DNA of 64,000 bases from Natronococcus sp. A-GB7. GTDB lineage: Archaea > Halobacteriota > Halobacteria > Halobacteriales > Natrialbaceae. Positions 2,112 through 13,809 of this stretch are shown piece by piece; position 1 is the stretch's first letter; every line of letters starts with the position of its first letter. Under the pieces are notes generated by a model, which saw nothing but the letters and a program-made list of their open reading frames with translations, searched no databases and had not been told where the DNA came from. The stretch spans positions 1 through 64,000 of the forward strand of contig NZ_JARUKV010000006.1 of assembly GCF_029688865.1 (NCBI RefSeq), written 5' to 3'. The position numbers were made by a program, and so were the translations under genes.

Positions 2112-2963
2112 TCATCCACTGTCAGCAGTCCGAGTCGTGGGAGTGGCGGAGTCGTCCCGAACGTGTTCGACACCCGTCGTCGCGAACCACTCGAGCAGCG
2201 AGGCGACCCCCCCGGGCGAGCGGACGCGTCCCGACGCGGCCGTCGGGGCGTCGTCGCCGACGCGGACGCCGACGCCCCGGGGTTCGACGGTTCGGAACGC
2301 GGACTCGTCCGTGACGTCGTCGCCGATGTAGATCGGAACCGTCCCGTCCGAGCGGTCGGCGACGAGCATTCCGACGGCGTTTCCCTTCCCCCAGTCGATC
2401 GAGGGGCCGATCTCGAGGATCGCCTTCCCGGTCGAGAGTTCGAGCCCCTCACCCCCGAACCGGGAAACGGTCTCGCGGGTGAGTCGCTCGACCTGTGGTC
2501 TCGCGGGTTCGGGCACCGACCGGTAGTGGACCGTAGCGGTCAGGCGCTTGTTCTCGACGCGGGCGTTCGGAACCGGATCGAGGGCGATCTCGAGGGCCTC
2601 GCAGACCGCGTCGACGCGCGCGGCGCGCTTTCGGGCGATCGGGTGGACCGCGACCGAATCGCCCCGTTCGAGTTCGAGGCCGTGGTTGCCCGCGTAGATC
2701 CGCGGACCGTCGACGCGCTCGCGGACGTCGGCGAGCCCGCGCCCGCTGACGATCGCGGTCGTTACATCCGGCTGGTCGGTGAGCGTCTCGAGGACGTCGC
2801 TGACGGCTCGCGTCGGGGTTGCCTCGTCGGGGTCGTCGACGATCGGCGCCAGCGTGCCGTCGAAGTCCAGACACAACAGAAGCTCCGTCGCCGCCTCGAG
2901 TCGCGTTCGGATCCGGGGCCGTACCTCGTCGATCGGATTCGGCTTCGTTTGCTGTCGTTGCAT
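2112..2963 (-). CDS. otsB: Trehalose-6-phosphate phosphatase
   Basis: 283 residues, HAD superfamily. It removes phosphate from trehalose 6-phosphate, the second step of the OtsAB route to the compatible solute trehalose. Motif I is LDFDGTLAP with nucleophile Asp33 and acid/base Asp35. SGR follows in motif II (AIVSGRGLADV). Near the end come KGNAVGML and YIGDDVTDESAF, the motif IV acidic pair. GNHGLE in the cap region is also typical of trehalose phosphatases. The ATG lies one base after the otsA stop, so the two genes are one transcript with otsA first. Length is normal for the family. Confidence 0.93.
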   Translation of the reverse strand: MQRQQTKPNPIDEVRPRIRTRLEAATELLLCLDFDGTLAPIVDDPDEATPTRAVSDVLETLTDQPDVTTAIVSGRGLADVRERVDGPRIYAGNHGLELERGDSVAVHPIARKRAARVDAVCEALEIALDPVPNARVENKRLTATVHYRSVPEPARPQVERLTRETVSRFGGEGLELSTGKAILEIGPSIDWGKGNAVGMLVADRSDGTVPIYIGDDVTDESAFRTVEPRGVGVRVGDDAPTAASGRVRSPGGVASLLEWFATTGVEHVRDDSATPTTRTADSG

Positions 2964-2964
2964 A

Positions 2965-4614
2965 CTATATTTGTGGGGTCCGCGCGCCGGGACCGTCGTC
3001 GTCCGACTCGTTCGGGTCGTGAAGACGGCGGATCGACGCGAACTGGCTGTCCATCCACGCCTCGAGGTCGGCCTCGAACACGTCGGTCCGCAGCGACCGC
3101 ATCCGGCGTCGTCGCTCGCTGGCCGGCATCGCCAGCGCGGTCTCGAGCTGGGCGGCGAACGCGTCGGTGTCGGTCGGATCGATCGTCACCGCGTCGTCGC
3201 CGAGCCGTTCGTGAGCGCCGGTTCGCTCGCTCAACAACAGGACGCCGTCGCCGTGGGGTTCGCCCGGCGCCGTTTCGCTCGCGGGGCCCTCGCCGACGCA
3301 GGAGGCGACGTACTCCTGGGCGACGAGGTTCATCCCGTCCAGCAGCGGGCTGATGACCATGACGTCGGCCCGCCGGTAGAGCCCGCAGAGGTTCTCCTGG
3401 GGGACGTACTCCTCGGTGTAGACGATCGGCTGCCAGTCGTCGGTGCCGAACCGGCTGTTGATCCTGGTGACCTCGCTGCGGACCAGGTCGCCGAGCCGTT
3501 CGTAGGCCGGAATGCCGGTCCGGGAGGGCGTCGCCTTCTGGAGGAACGTAAACGTCCCGCGCCGATCGGGGTTGCGCTCGAAGAACCGCTCGAGGGCGGC
3601 GAGACGTTCGGGGATCCCCTTCGAGTAGTCGAGGCGGTCGACGCCGAGTCCGAGCGTGACCTCGGGAGAGACGCCGAACTCCTCGAGCAGTGCGTCCGTC
3701 TCCTCGACCGCCCGGGCACTCTCGTCGTGGCTCTCGGCGTCGATCCCCATCGCTGCAGTCGCCAGCCGCGTCGTCCCCTCGTCGTAGTCGACAAGCCACT
3801 CCTCGTGGTCGACGACCGCGCCGTCGAGGTACTGCTCGACGCACTCGAGGAACAGCCGCGCGTACCGATCGACGTGGAAGCCCAGCAGGTCGTTGCCGAG
3901 CAGCCCCTCGAGCAGCTCCTCGCGGACGGGACACTCCGCGAACGTCTCCGGCGTCGGCCACGGGATGTGCCAGAAGTGTGCGATCGTCGCGGCCTTCGGG
4001 ATCCGCTCGCGGATCAACCGCGGCGCGAGCCCGAAGTGGTAGTCCTGGATCCAGACGATCGACTCGGCCGTCGCGTGCTCGGCGACGGCGTCGGCGAACC
4101 GCTCGTTGACCGTTCGGTACCACTCGAAGTCGTTCGTCCAGCCGTCTCGCTCCCTGATCAGGTCGGGAAACTCGTGACAGAGCGGCCAGAGGACCTGGTT
4201 GCTGAAGCCGTAGTAGTAGGAGTCGACGGCCTCCTCCGAGAGGCCGATCCGATGAAGGGTGTAGGCGTCCTCCCCGGGCGGCACGGAGACGCAGTCGTTC
4301 GCGTCGGTGACCGCGAAGTCGGCCTCGCCGTCGCCCCAGGCGATCCAGGTGCCGTTGGCCTCCCGGACGACCGGGTCCAGCCCGGCGGTCAGTCCGCCGG
4401 CGGGCTCGTCGACGACGATCGACCGGTCCTCGCCGTCCGATTCGGCCTCGGACTCGTACTCGTGGCGGTACGGCTGGCGGTTCGAGACGACGATCAGCGA
4501 TCCCGGACAGCCCGGACCGTCGTCACCGTCGTCCGTCTCGTCGGGGCGGCTCCCCCCGTCCGCTCGTCGCCCGTCGGTCCGTCCGTCGGGCAGCCGGTGC
4601 TCCGTATTTCGCAT
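2965..4614 (-). CDS. otsA: Trehalose-6-phosphate synthase (GT20)
   Basis: 549 residues. It joins a nucleotide-activated glucose to glucose 6-phosphate. Family signs in order: LIVVSNRQPY near residue 42, the glycine-rich EPAGGLTAGLDP, VWIQDYHFGLAPRLIRE, the nucleotide-sugar site LGVDRLDYSKGIPERL, and DGMNLVAQEYVA. About 40 residues of acidic, low-complexity sequence precede the catalytic domain, which is longer than bacterial OtsA. It is first gene of an operon with otsB. A likely TATA element on the minus strand lies near 4671-4680, leaving a leader of some 35 bases. Trehalose is a known osmolyte in several Natrialbales; role here is inferred as osmoprotection. Confidence 0.93.
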   Translation of the reverse strand: MRNTEHRLPDGRTDGRRADGGSRPDETDDGDDGPGCPGSLIVVSNRQPYRHEYESEAESDGEDRSIVVDEPAGGLTAGLDPVVREANGTWIAWGDGEADFAVTDANDCVSVPPGEDAYTLHRIGLSEEAVDSYYYGFSNQVLWPLCHEFPDLIRERDGWTNDFEWYRTVNERFADAVAEHATAESIVWIQDYHFGLAPRLIRERIPKAATIAHFWHIPWPTPETFAECPVREELLEGLLGNDLLGFHVDRYARLFLECVEQYLDGAVVDHEEWLVDYDEGTTRLATAAMGIDAESHDESARAVEETDALLEEFGVSPEVTLGLGVDRLDYSKGIPERLAALERFFERNPDRRGTFTFLQKATPSRTGIPAYERLGDLVRSEVTRINSRFGTDDWQPIVYTEEYVPQENLCGLYRRADVMVISPLLDGMNLVAQEYVASCVGEGPASETAPGEPHGDGVLLLSERTGAHERLGDDAVTIDPTDTDAFAAQLETALAMPASERRRRMRSLRTDVFEADLEAWMDSQFASIRRLHDPNESDDDGPGARTPQI

Positions 4615-8904: not shown

Positions 8905-10524
8905 CTAGTGCGTCGTCTTTTTCTTCTCTTTCTCGTCCTTGTCCTTCTCGTCCTTGCCGTTCTTCTTCTCGTCTTTCTTGTCCTTGTCGTCCTTCTTCCC
9001 CTTCTTTTCGTCTTTCTCCTCGCCGTCGCCCTCGCCGACCGCGCGCGCCTCGGTCAGCTGGACGTTCTGGTTCGCCTGGTAGTTCAGCTGTTCGGCCGTC
9101 GCCTCGCCGCAGTGGGTAGCGTAGGCGATCGCGCTGAACTGCTCGTTGACGTTCACCTGCTCGACGAACTGGTACTGGTCGATCTCGGCGGCGGCCGCCT
9201 CGAGGTCGATGTCGCTGTCGCCGTTCTCGTAGGCCAGCGCCCAGGAGCCGTCGTCGTTAGCGGCGGCGCCGTTGAGCACCGTACACGCGCTGCAGCGTCC
9301 GTCGCTGACGTTCAGCCCCTCCGCGGTGGCCACCTGCGCGTTGAAGTTGCCCTGGTAGCTCACCTGTCGGGCGGTCGCGTCGCTGTCTTTCTTGGCGAGC
9401 GCGATGGCAGCGTTTTGCAGGTTGATGTTCTCCTGGCCGACGCGCTGGACCTGCGTGATATCCGCCGACGCCCCCTGTCCGTTCGACTGGTGCTTGCCGT
9501 CGTCCGTTCGCTCCACGGCGCCGTCCGGAAGCTCGCCCTCCATCTCGGCGCAGTCGAGGATATCGTCGGCCGACCGGAAGCCGAAGCTGATCGCCGTCGC
9601 GTCGGCGGTCTGCTCGTTGACGTTGAGCTGGGAGCTCAGCTGGTAGGCCTCCGCGGTACTACACTCGCCGACGGCGATCGCGATGGCGACGCCCTGCTCG
9701 CTGACGTTGAGCTGGGAGACGTCCTGGGCCTGCTCGACCGACGCTTCGGCCTCCTGTCGGTCCCCTTCGCCGATGTTCGCCGCGACGGCCTCGGCGTGCT
9801 GGTAGTTCTCGTTCGCCTGCCAGCTGCGCTGGTAGGACCGGGCGCAGCTGCCCTTCTCGGCGAGGGCCATCGAGGCGCTCTGACTGTTGTAGTTGAACTG
9901 GTCGACCGTCTGGGTCTGTTCGATCGTCGCCCGGGCCGACTGTTCGTTCCGGTAGGAGTCCTCCCTGGCGACCCAGCCCGAGAACGTCCGACAGCCGGTC
10001 TCCTCTGCGAAGACGATGTACACCCGGCTGGGGTCGTAGAACGTCTCGTCTCTCGTCTCGTGTGCGACGTCTATCGACTCCGCACTCGCGTCCTGGACGT
10101 TGACGTTGTCCTGCTCGGTCTCTTGGACGGCCGTCGCGTCACCGCCGTCGATAGCGATGCTGATGGCGTTGCCCTGCTGGAGCACGTTGAGCTGGGAGAC
10201 CTCCTGGTACTGGATGACGTTCGGGAGGGACTCCCCTGAGTCGCCGTTGATCTCGTCGCGGTGCTTGTCGACCCAGCTGTCGAGATCCTTCTCGGAGGAG
10301 TCGGCGCCGAAGACCAGGTACAGATCGTCGCCGTTGATCTCGTGACTCTTCGCTTCCTCCTCCTCTTCCTTCTCATCGTCCTTCTTTTCGTCGTCCTTCC
10401 CTGCATCCGCACGCGTACGGGTACTCGCCACCGAAAGTGTTCCGACGCCGAGTCCGCCCGCCGCGAGTCCTTTGAGATACCCTCGTCGCTTCATCGTGCC
10501 GCGGTTCGTGTTCTTTTCTGCCAT
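8905..10524 (-). CDS. Tat-exported curlin-like Q/N repeat protein
   Basis: 539 residues. A Tat signal (KRRGYLKGLAAGGLG, residues 12-26) follows a short lead; an in-frame ATG at 10494 (MKRRG) is an equally good start. After an acidic linker come five repeats of about 48 residues, at roughly 103-150, 200-247, 262-310, 355-402 and 447-495. Each repeat holds two strands-and-turn units of about 23 residues of the form Q-x-x-V-x-Q-L-N-V-N-x-Q followed by A-I-A-x-A, for example DVSQLNVSEQGVAIAIAV. This spacing of Gln/Asn and small residues closely recalls CsgA curlin repeats (SxLNIxQxG) and predicts a beta-solenoid with Q/N ladders. Repeats 1 and 2 are each preceded by a related segment (DLYLVFGAD at 67-75; RVYIVFAEE at 167-175). 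Seven Cys are present, including CSAC at 411-414. The tail 503-536 is almost only Lys, Asp, Glu and Gly. No CsgG- or CsgB-like partner is nearby. A functional amyloid or surface matrix protein is my inference. Confidence 0.8.
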   Translation of the reverse strand: MAEKNTNRGTMKRRGYLKGLAAGGLGVGTLSVASTRTRADAGKDDEKKDDEKEEEEEAKSHEINGDDLYLVFGADSSEKDLDSWVDKHRDEINGDSGESLPNVIQYQEVSQLNVLQQGNAISIAIDGGDATAVQETEQDNVNVQDASAESIDVAHETRDETFYDPSRVYIVFAEETGCRTFSGWVAREDSYRNEQSARATIEQTQTVDQFNYNSQSASMALAEKGSCARSYQRSWQANENYQHAEAVAANIGEGDRQEAEASVEQAQDVSQLNVSEQGVAIAIAVGECSTAEAYQLSSQLNVNEQTADATAISFGFRSADDILDCAEMEGELPDGAVERTDDGKHQSNGQGASADITQVQRVGQENINLQNAAIALAKKDSDATARQVSYQGNFNAQVATAEGLNVSDGRCSACTVLNGAAANDDGSWALAYENGDSDIDLEAAAAEIDQYQFVEQVNVNEQFSAIAYATHCGEATAEQLNYQANQNVQLTEARAVGEGDGEEKDEKKGKKDDKDKKDEKKNGKDEKDKDEKEKKKTTH

Positions 10525-10840: not shown

Positions 10841-12010
10841 ATGGGATACTCCGCAGTGGTGCTCGCGGCAGGGGAGGGGAGACGACTTCGGCCCCTGACG
10901 ACACACCGGCCGAAGCCGATGCTTCCGGCGGCGACGAAACCGATCCTCGAGCACGTTTTCGACGCGCTGATCGACGCCGGCGTCACCGACATCACGGTCG
11001 TCGTCGGCTACCGCCGGACCCGGGTACAGTCCGAGTTCGGCCCGAGCTACCGTGACGTGCCCCTGACGTACGTCGCTCAGGACAAACAGCTCGGCAGCGG
11101 CCACGCGCTGCTCGCGGCCGAGCCGGCGATCGAGGGCGAGGCACTCGTCGTCAACGGCGATCAGCTGATCGACAGCCGAATCATCGAGGACGTCATCGCG
11201 GCCCACGACCAGGAGTCGGCGACGGCGACGCTGGGGCTGGTCCGACGGGCCGACGTCACCCGGTACGGCGGCGTGCTCCTCGAGGACGGTGTCGTTACGG
11301 AGATCGTCGAGAACCCGCGTGACGACCGGGGCTATCAGCTCAATGCCGGTGTCTACGCCTTCGAGCCGTCGATCTTCGAGGCGATTCGCCGGAGCGAGCC
11401 TCGCGCTGGCGAGCAGTCGCTGGTCGACGGAATCACGACGCTGCTCGAGGCCGGCGACGAGGTCCGAGGGGTCGTCTCGGAGGGAACCTGGATCGACGCC
11501 ACCTACCCGTGGGATCTGTTGCGGATCGCCGACGACCTGCTCGAGGAGGGTGAGGAACGGCAAATCGCCGCGAGCGCGTCGGTCCACGAGGACGCGACGG
11601 TGCTCGAGCCGGTCGTGATCGACGACGACTGCGTCGTCGGCCCCGGCGCGGTCGTCGGACCGAACGTCTGTCTCGGCGAGAACGTCACCATCGGATCGAA
11701 CGCGACGGTCGAACGGTCGGTACTCGACGCCGACACTCGCGTCGACAACGGCGCCACGCTGCGAGACTGCGTAACCGGACGGGGCGTCGGGATCGGTCCG
11801 AACTCGACGGTCGTCGGCGGCCCGGGTGACGTCGAGATCGGCGACCGCGTCCACCGGGAGACGATCCTCGGCGCGGTGCTGGCCGATCACGTCCGCGACG
11901 TCGGCGGGGTGACCTACGAGCCCGGAACGGTCGTCGGCCACGGCGCGGTCTGCCACGGGGGGTCGACCGTCGGCGGAACGATCGCCGCCGACGCGGAGGT
12001 GTGGAGCTGA
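10841..12010 (+). CDS. Sugar-1-phosphate nucleotidyltransferase with left-handed beta-helix (GlmU-like)
   Basis: 389 residues. The N-terminal Rossmann-like domain carries VVLAAGEGRRLRPLT...KPMLP (nucleotide-sugar pyrophosphorylase signature, residues 6-27), VVNGDQL with the metal-binding Asp, and GTWIDATYPWDLL. From about residue 245 hexapeptide repeats form a beta helix (IDDDCVVGPGAVVGPNVCLGEN and similar). Archaeal bifunctional enzymes of this design make UDP-GlcNAc or dTDP/UDP-glucose. Its stop overlaps the glmS ATG (TGATG at 12008-12012), so it is co-translated with the enzyme that makes glucosamine 6-phosphate. That supports an amino-sugar role: glucosamine-1-phosphate acetyl-/uridylyltransferase. 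Whether the acetyltransferase half is active is not certain. Confidence 0.85.
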   Translation: MGYSAVVLAAGEGRRLRPLTTHRPKPMLPAATKPILEHVFDALIDAGVTDITVVVGYRRTRVQSEFGPSYRDVPLTYVAQDKQLGSGHALLAAEPAIEGEALVVNGDQLIDSRIIEDVIAAHDQESATATLGLVRRADVTRYGGVLLEDGVVTEIVENPRDDRGYQLNAGVYAFEPSIFEAIRRSEPRAGEQSLVDGITTLLEAGDEVRGVVSEGTWIDATYPWDLLRIADDLLEEGEERQIAASASVHEDATVLEPVVIDDDCVVGPGAVVGPNVCLGENVTIGSNATVERSVLDADTRVDNGATLRDCVTGRGVGIGPNSTVVGGPGDVEIGDRVHRETILGAVLADHVRDVGGVTYEPGTVVGHGAVCHGGSTVGGTIAADAEVWS

Positions 12011-13809
12011 TGTGCGGAATCATCGGCTACGTCGGCGCCGACCGCTCGAACGCGGCCGACGTTCTGCTCCACGGCCTCTCCCAGCTCGAGTACCGGGGGT
12101 ACGACTCGGCGGGGATCGCGCTCGCTGACGGCAGACTCGACGTCCACAAGCGCCAGGGCGAGCTCTCGGCGCTCGAGAACGCGCTCGCGGGTGCCGAGCT
12201 CGGCAACCAGACCACGGGGATCGGCCACACCCGCTGGAGCACCCACGGACGGCCGTCGGACCGCAACGCTCACCCCCACACGGACGCCGAGAACCGGGTC
12301 GCAGTCGTCCACAACGGGATCATCGAGAACTACCAGGGGCTGCGCGACGAGCTCTCGGCCGAGGGCGTCGAGTTCCGCAGCGAGACCGACACGGAGGTCA
12401 TCCCCCACCTGATCGCCGGCTACCTCGAGGACGGGCTCGACCACGAGGCCGCGTTCCGCGCGGCGATCGGTCGACTCGAGGGAAGCTACGCCGTGGCGGC
12501 CGTCTTCGCCGGCTCGGAGACGGTGTACGCAGCGCGCCACGAGTCGCCGCTGGTGCTCGGCCTCGCTGACGACGGTACCTACCTCGCCAGCGACGTCCCC
12601 GCGTTCATCGAGTTCACCGATCGAGTGATCTACCTCGAGGACGGCGAGTTCGCCCGGCTCGAGGGCGACGAGATCTCGGTCACCGACAGCGAGGGCCGGG
12701 TCGTCGAGACCTCGATCGAGACGATCGAGTGGGACCCCGAGGACGCCGGCAAGAGCGGCTACGACCACTACATGCGAAAGGAGATCAACGAGCAGCCGTC
12801 GTCGCTCCGGGAGTGTTTCCGGGGTCGGCTCGACGAGCTCAGCGGCCGGGTCACTCTCGAGGAGTTCGAGGGGTTCGAGCTGAACCCGCCCGTAACGTTC
12901 GTCGCCTGTGGCACCTCCTACCACGCGGCGCTATTCGGCGCGCAGCTGTTCCGGGAGTGGGGCGTTCCGGCCCACGCCTACCTGGCCAGCGAGTTCGAGG
13001 CCGAGTCGATGCCGATCGACACCGACTCGGTCGTCGTCGGCGTCACCCAGAGCGGCGAGACCGCGGATACCCTGCGCGCGCTCCGAGAGGCGAACGCCGC
13101 CGGCGCGACGACGGTCGCCGTGACGAACGTCGTCGGCAGCTCGGCCGCCCGCGAGACCGATCGCGTGCTGTACATCCGCGCCGGACCGGAGATCAGCGTC
13201 GCCGCGACGAAGACCTTCGCTTCCCAGCAGGCCGCACTGACGATGCTCGCGGCCTCACTGAGCGACCACCGCTCCCGGGAGCTCGTCCGCGAGCTGCGGT
13301 CGGTTCCCGACCGAATCCAGTCCGTCCTCGACGAGGACGCCGCCCGCGAGGTCGCCTCGACGTACGCCGACGCGAGCGCCTACTTCTTTATTGGGCGGGG
13401 GTATCACTACCCCGTCGCCCTCGAGGGCGCGCTGAAGATGAAGGAGATCACGTACAAACACGCCGAGGGGTTCGCGGCCGGCGAGCTCAAACACGGGCCG
13501 CTCGCGCTCGTCACGGAGCAGACGCCGGTGTTCGCCATCGTCACCGGCGACGGCCGCCGCGCCGAGAAGACCATCGGGAACGTCAAGGAAGTCGAGGCCC
13601 GGGGGACGCCGGTCGTCGCCGTCACCGACGGCCGATCGGAGGTCGGCCGTTACGCCGACCACGTCCTCGAGGTGCCGCCGGCTGGCGAGATCACGAGCTC
13701 GATGGTCGCGAACGTCCAGCTCCAGCGAGTCGCCTACTGGACGGCCCACGAGCTGGGTCGGTCGATCGACAAACCCCGGAACCTCGCCAAGAGCGTCACG
13801 GTCGAGTAA
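12010..13809 (+). CDS. glmS: Glutamine-fructose-6-phosphate aminotransferase (isomerizing)
   Basis: 599 residues from the ATG at 12010 that puts Cys at position 2 (MCGIIGYVG), the N-terminal nucleophile exposed after Met removal. The glutaminase domain shows LEYRGYDSAGIAL, GIGHTRWSTHG and VVHNGIIENY. Two SIS isomerase domains follow, with ACGTSYHAALFG, VTQSGETADTLRALREA, and YFFIGRGYHYPVALEGALKMKEITYKHAEG. The C-terminus ends in the usual DKPRNLAKSVTVE. It converts fructose 6-phosphate and glutamine into glucosamine 6-phosphate. The start overlaps the stop of the nucleotidyltransferase gene by one base, so translation is coupled. Confidence 0.96.
   Translation: MCGIIGYVGADRSNAADVLLHGLSQLEYRGYDSAGIALADGRLDVHKRQGELSALENALAGAELGNQTTGIGHTRWSTHGRPSDRNAHPHTDAENRVAVVHNGIIENYQGLRDELSAEGVEFRSETDTEVIPHLIAGYLEDGLDHEAAFRAAIGRLEGSYAVAAVFAGSETVYAARHESPLVLGLADDGTYLASDVPAFIEFTDRVIYLEDGEFARLEGDEISVTDSEGRVVETSIETIEWDPEDAGKSGYDHYMRKEINEQPSSLRECFRGRLDELSGRVTLEEFEGFELNPPVTFVACGTSYHAALFGAQLFREWGVPAHAYLASEFEAESMPIDTDSVVVGVTQSGETADTLRALREANAAGATTVAVTNVVGSSAARETDRVLYIRAGPEISVAATKTFASQQAALTMLAASLSDHRSRELVRELRSVPDRIQSVLDEDAAREVASTYADASAYFFIGRGYHYPVALEGALKMKEITYKHAEGFAAGELKHGPLALVTEQTPVFAIVTGDGRRAEKTIGNVKEVEARGTPVVAVTDGRSEVGRYADHVLEVPPAGEITSSMVANVQLQRVAYWTAHELGRSIDKPRNLAKSVTVE

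Follow-up and report, generated by a model that had tools for sequence, protein, structure and literature searches.

Curlins, the family of CsgA and CsgB, are defined by the kernel N-x-Psi-x-Psi-x-Q-x-G-x-x, and the large curli survey from which this kernel is taken covered bacterial RefSeq only (PMC10192328). Dueholm et al. described one archaeal protein in which curli-like repeats recur at regular spacing (PMC3521004). In FapC of Pseudomonas, the number of repeats is fixed; the repeats are long and imperfect, have conserved Asn/Gln, are separated by long linkers and form a solenoid (PMC12822426). In the descriptions that we compared, the archaeal sheath proteins SH of Methanospirillum and MspA of Methanosaeta are exported surface proteins of an amyloid-like beta-arch type (PMC10593813, PMC6242892).

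We studied a repeat protein from the haloarchaeon Natronococcus sp. A-GB7, encoded in a stretch of 64,000 nucleotides that we call the window. One open frame on the minus strand, as are all its parts given below, spans positions 8905-10524 exactly and encodes 539 residues. The order of the protein is a twin-arginine signal, a spacer rich in acidic residues and lysine, a conserved LYLVFGAD segment, five double repeats and a charged tail.

The N-terminus, MKRRGYLKGLAAGGLGVGTLSVASTRTRADA, is a twin-arginine (Tat) signal (residues 1-41, positions 10402-10524) with the motif KRRGYLK, and a signal of the KRRGYLKG type is kept across the clade of this protein. The twin-arginine motif lies ahead of a hydrophobic stretch, as is characteristic of Tat substrates (MKRRGYLKGLAAGGLGVGTLSVAS), and this arrangement is conserved clade-wide. 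The signal is consistent with export by Tat, as the original prediction had proposed. In the N-terminal conserved segment (residues 61-97, positions 10234-10344), F15 and G16 are invariant among 45 homologues and LYLVFGAD is almost invariant; it is possible that this segment caps the first rung of the fold discussed below. The C-terminal tail (residues 501-539, positions 8908-9024) is rich in Lys, Asp and Glu. A PGF-CTERM (a C-terminal PGF motif followed by a hydrophobic helix and a basic end) is absent from the window protein.

The double repeats were located with a unit profile, A2. They are R1 at residues ~98-154 (positions 10063-10230, E 2.9e-21), R2 at ~195-252 (9769-9945, E 3.9e-21), R3 at ~257-315 (9583-9759, E 2.5e-21), R4 at ~350-407 (9304-9480, E 2.9e-20) and R5 at ~442-499 (9031-9201, E 9.0e-22); R2 to R5 each have two predicted long strands. 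The unit HMM thus places in the protein the five double repeats that had been predicted, and the predicted starts at 103, 200, 262, 355 and 447 agree with it in position and spacing. The repeat itself stands, but its length is about 56-58 residues rather than the ~48 first given. Periodicity is also evident from a self-alignment, in which the best off-diagonal score over 30 residues is 71, far above that of 50 shuffles (34 +/- 5.6, maximum 49). The motifs QxQxxxQxN and QxNxNxQ occur five and eight times, respectively, versus a mean of 0.01 in shuffles.

The protein belongs to a new repeat family. A Pfam and NCBIfam scan assigned it to no family, a PHROGs search gave no match and the best phmmer match in the PDB reached only E 0.16. 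A candidate match to HVO_0513_N was dropped, as its 15.6 bits (E 0.012) are below the cut-off of 29.8.

Across 340 repeats from 68 long homologues of named organisms, the consensus is Q.A.A.V.Q.Q.V.Q.N.N.Q..A.AIA..GS.ATA.Q...Q.N.N.Q.G.A.A.N. Alternate positions are almost fixed, with most Gln/Asn columns being invariant or having few exceptions, and the same columns dominate the invariant positions of full-length alignments. Each repeat consists of two arms of strictly alternating residues, with one face variable and acidic. The inward columns carry 3.6-3.75 bits and are occupied by Q, N, A and V, also by S and G, with 0.1-0.3% acid; the outward columns are variable (1.2-1.36 bits) and 22-29% acid. 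Long beta strands that bury one polar face show just such an alternation of fixed and variable columns. In the presumed core of the repeat, amide side chains and alanine would predominate and hydrophobics would be few, and an acidic outer face suits a halophilic organism.

Given that the composition is biased, the repeats could in principle be unstructured, low-complexity Q/N-rich sequence without specific function. We regard this as extremely improbable: some 25-30 alternating columns are kept across haloarchaeal families and Firmicutes, strands are predicted with confidence, and synteny is conserved in one of the two clades described below.

The original prediction called the repeats curlin-like. 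As a description of the type of sequence this is apt, with alternating Q/N/A and, in some units, starts of the form S-x-LN-V. Kinship with curlins, however, was found in none of the sequence comparisons that we made. The HMM search with PF07012 that had been suggested (run with hmmscan) yields no match in the window protein, nor at the five-repeat genes and small one-repeat genes of its relatives, and the same search does detect a genuine curlin in another haloarchaeon. The motifs QxGxxN and NxPsixPsixQ, which occur 5 and 5 times in CsgA and 10 and 22 times in this archaeal curlin, both have a count of 0 in the window protein, and QxQxxxQxN and QxNxNxQ were found in none of CsgA, CsgB and the archaeal curlin. 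Against these same three proteins, hhalign gave a probability of <1%, no better than column-shuffled controls, and the unit HMM did not match them even with filters off. An hmmsearch of all PDB chain sequences with profiles A4 and A2 retrieved no CsgA or FapC chain. As the PF07012, kernel and profile-profile results and the shuffled controls are all negative, we conclude that the protein is not a curlin, although its mode of working may resemble that of curli. A divergent member of the CsgA/CsgB family could account for the shared sequence type and for the presence of CsgA among the best structural neighbours, but in light of these negative results it is very unlikely.

The archaeal curlin just mentioned is an observation separate from our finding. 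It is encoded in a haloarchaeon of the same family (genome G035; L040:1300-2037, minus strand) and has 245 residues and a signal peptide. It matches PF07012 with E 2e-45 and Pontibacter korlensis CsgA (PDB 8c50) with E 2e-16, and its match to the NCBIfam CsgB model (E 2e-27) is below the cut-off of that model.

We predicted structures using AlphaFold2 without templates, for the whole region and, in a second run with 69 sequences, for R2-R5. The R2-R5 model has two strands per repeat, each 24-29 residues long and joined by a short turn, with a mean pLDDT of 75.3 (mostly 80-96 in the strand blocks) and a pTM of 0.68. The whole-region model is weaker (pLDDT 64.7), again with a pair of long strands in each repeat. 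According to Foldseek, the nearest structures are solved functional amyloids and beta-helices, namely Pontibacter CsgA, FapC and SufB/SufD, although no match reaches significance (best E 0.03). For the second model, FapC 9u4u ranks first in Foldseek, and the CsgA structures 8c50 and 8enq are among the neighbours, likewise without significance. With a second aligner, the best match of the first model is SufD (Z 8.3, 152 residues, 3.8 Å), and E. coli CsgA reaches Z 7.0 with the second model, but at an rmsd of 8.2 Å over 92 residues. SufB/SufD is a cytoplasmic Fe-S assembly protein; its flat two-sheet beta-solenoid core resembles the predicted fold, but it has no sequence similarity to the repeat protein. 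We read the structural matches as indicating a fold class, not kinship, and folds missing from the match lists were not counted as evidence.

The repeats are thus predicted to form a long-strand beta-solenoid, and from the nature of the structural matches we infer that the rungs stack in parallel. Long strands with Gln/Asn ladders had been foreseen, and the models, with two long strands per repeat and solenoids as their best, if non-significant, neighbours, are in keeping with this. A convergent beta-solenoid, which the original prediction gave as its alternative, appears to be the better half of its interpretation. The two long strands and short turn of each repeat could instead pair as antiparallel hairpins within a sheet or barrel. 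This arrangement is improbable, since parallel beta-solenoids or beta-helices make up most of the top-ranked neighbours of either model. Moreover, a conserved face of polar Gln/Asn would be expected where ladders form, but not in a membrane barrel or a sandwich.

Orthologues in other Natronococcus are 90-91% identical, and homologues occur in 50 of 100 relatives. Across the order they are present in 62 of 293 genomes, belonging to Natrialbaceae, Haladaptataceae and a few other families, and a phylum-wide sample added only further Natrialbaceae. Plasmid records label homologues as hypothetical or as "PGF-CTERM sorting domain-containing". The phages and viral contigs that we searched hold no relative, so nothing points to a viral origin.

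A maximum-likelihood tree separates a Tat-type clade, which contains the window protein and one Sec-like exception (L089), from a clade whose members mostly have Sec signals. The clades also differ in their C-termini. Tat-clade members, including the window protein, mostly have charged tails, which are alike. Most Sec-clade proteins stop about five residues beyond R5, leaving the last rung open. Eight Sec-clade members carry a C-terminal extension of 84-144 residues that ends in PGF or PGL plus a hydrophobic helix, and all four of these that were scanned pass the cut-off of the PGF-CTERM model TIGR04126.

The window genome also contains a truncated paralogue on a third contig (G000:C16:52986-53681; L027:7576-8688, plus strand). 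It has only R4 and R5, is 73% identical to the window protein and lies in frame behind an unrelated N-terminal stretch; it looks like a recombined remnant.

Genes for a GlmU-like sugar-1-phosphate nucleotidyltransferase and then a GlmS-like transaminase lie in the window at 10841-13809 (plus strand). The original prediction drew attention to this neighbourhood, but it is not conserved: it adjoins the five-repeat gene only in Natronococcus-type loci and one other. The pair is ordinary and has no general link to the repeat gene. Elsewhere in the window (2112-4614, minus strand), a trehalose-phosphatase gene adjoins one for a glycosyltransferase of family 20 (trehalose-phosphate synthase type), consistent with osmolyte synthesis.

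Relatives encode short proteins with Sec signals, mostly of 93-260 residues, in which this repeat occurs as a single unit. One to four copies of these small genes lie divergently, just upstream of the big, five-repeat gene, in 37 of the 48 non-Tat-clade loci that were counted. The neighbourhood is conserved in the Sec clade and includes genes that we named, by sequence inspection, as a CDC48-like ATPase and a LarC-like gene. Using a profile of the small proteins, we found small genes in all nine checked genomes that have the big gene. In 17 Natrialbaceae genomes without the big gene (two of them incomplete), we found none, except for two weak matches (E 3e-5 and 1.5e-4) that cover the signal-peptide end in long frames. 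Because the checked genomes are related, this co-occurrence does not amount to 26 independent tests. The window genome has two small genes on other contigs, one of them at the CDC48-LarC locus as in relatives, and its big and small genes are therefore unlinked.

Two further arrangements of the small genes were seen. Five one-unit genes lie in tandem on the chromosome of Haladaptatus salinisoli (L150:7863-9846), with no five-repeat gene within the stretch covered. In Natronococcus, a gene for a repetitive MTETEFPWGTVTHET-type protein adjoins small repeat genes (L174:8891-9439 and L024:5144-5452, both minus strand).

By analogy, the closest functional models would be curli, for a template with subunits, and Fap, for long imperfect repeats with linkers. 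Like CsgA and CsgB, the proteins are exported, have strand-turn-strand repeats with conserved inward Gln/Asn, and comprise a several-repeat protein and partners that are encoded together. However, a rung is about 56 residues here and ~20 in curli, the curlin kernel and profile similarity are absent, export is by Tat or Sec from a cell without an outer membrane, and the big protein always has five repeats. The resemblance to FapC and FapB is a fixed count of long imperfect Asn/Gln repeats, here exactly five in 68 of 68 long homologues from named organisms, with long linkers (medians of 44, 10, 40 and 46 residues). They differ in that Fap has three repeats, that the partners here have one repeat, that FapC has a Greek-key core and that our repeat profiles have no sequence match to FapC PDB chains. 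The archaeal sheath proteins, compared by description, share the export of an amyloid-like beta-arch type protein to the surface, but SH is described as a cap domain with two six-stranded sheets that form rings, and the repeat type found here does not feature in those descriptions (PMC10593813, PMC6242892).

We propose that the big exported protein is a surface template or cap for small subunits that stack in a solenoid with Gln/Asn ladders, much as in curli or Fap, and we consider this about as likely to be right as wrong. One double repeat would be one rung of a flat beta-solenoid, with its two arms of ~25 residues folded back on each other. The inward faces of Gln, Asn, Ala and Val would stack rung on rung to give hydrogen-bonded Gln/Asn ladders, and the acidic outward faces would meet the brine. 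The big protein would bring five pre-arranged rungs, and the small partners exported by Sec, which have one or two units each, could add to its open end, so that it templates or caps a stack or fibre on the cell surface. In the clade of the window protein, the big protein would exit via Tat, probably already folded, with its partners encoded elsewhere in the genome. Counterpoints to stacking are that the window genome has its big and small genes at separate places and that the signals point to Tat for this big protein versus mostly Sec for the small ones.

The main rival is that the big protein is a stand-alone, five-rung beta-solenoid on the surface and forms no polymer. It could be an adhesin, a glycan binder or an S-layer associate, and the small proteins would then be separate adhesins or ligands with the same rung. 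This explanation is doubtful but has several points in its favour. The count is fixed at five and repeat positions are not interchangeable, with repeat identity being 0.54-0.63 at the same position versus 0.45 between positions among the 68 homologues. In addition, the linkers are long, the N-terminal segment is conserved and some relatives are anchored by PGF-CTERM. However, FapC, a true amyloid, likewise has a fixed number of repeats and long linkers (PMC12822426). Moreover, the small genes co-occur with the big gene, and one-unit proteins would hardly be stable as lone rungs.

The repeat module also occurs in Firmicutes. Three adjacent repeat genes, most with two recognisable units, are present in each of two bins, one of Thermincola and one of Clostridiaceae, and two more Clostridia contigs hold such genes (arrays at L149:7971-10283, L151:7968-10236, L168 and L169). 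The array proteins all have a different C-terminal part from the archaeal ones and no obvious signal peptides. An HMM built from archaeal sequences only matches the Thermincola proteins with E 1e-19 to 3e-31 and those of the Clostridiaceae bin with E 7e-9 to 9e-23; the best E among 100 shuffles of any of them is 6. The module is rare in Firmicutes, being present in 3 of 391 Clostridia genomes and in 1 of 398 genomes of the phylum of the Thermincola bin. As both named bins come from metagenome assembly, the assignment of these contigs depends on the assemblers. The genes flanking the Thermincola array are of the YheC/D ATP-grasp type and of a capsule-synthesis type, and another YheC/D gene lies ~4 kb away. 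YheC/D is known from spore coats, and the arrays could possibly encode endospore surface proteins.

The five-repeat protein looks like an independently evolved counterpart of bacterial surface amyloid fibres, and the repeat system is more general than the original prediction stated. More broadly, and with somewhat less than even confidence, we suggest that Haloarchaea own a functional-amyloid-like machine, without sequence kinship to curli or Fap, in which a five-rung exported template and one-rung Sec subunits stack via Gln/Asn ladders on a surface in near-saturated salt. Firmicutes would share its rung module and may use their signal-less three-gene arrays to build a layer of the endospore. 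The finding suggests that the Gln/Asn-ladder solution of curli and Fap evolved a further time, here with rungs of over twice the curli length. Protein design could also profit from a rung able to fold in concentrated brine. Haloferax biofilms bind Congo red and thioflavin T (PMC4180959). The repeat family provides concrete candidates, with a template and subunit logic and in culturable hosts, for the amyloid-like material of haloarchaeal biofilms.
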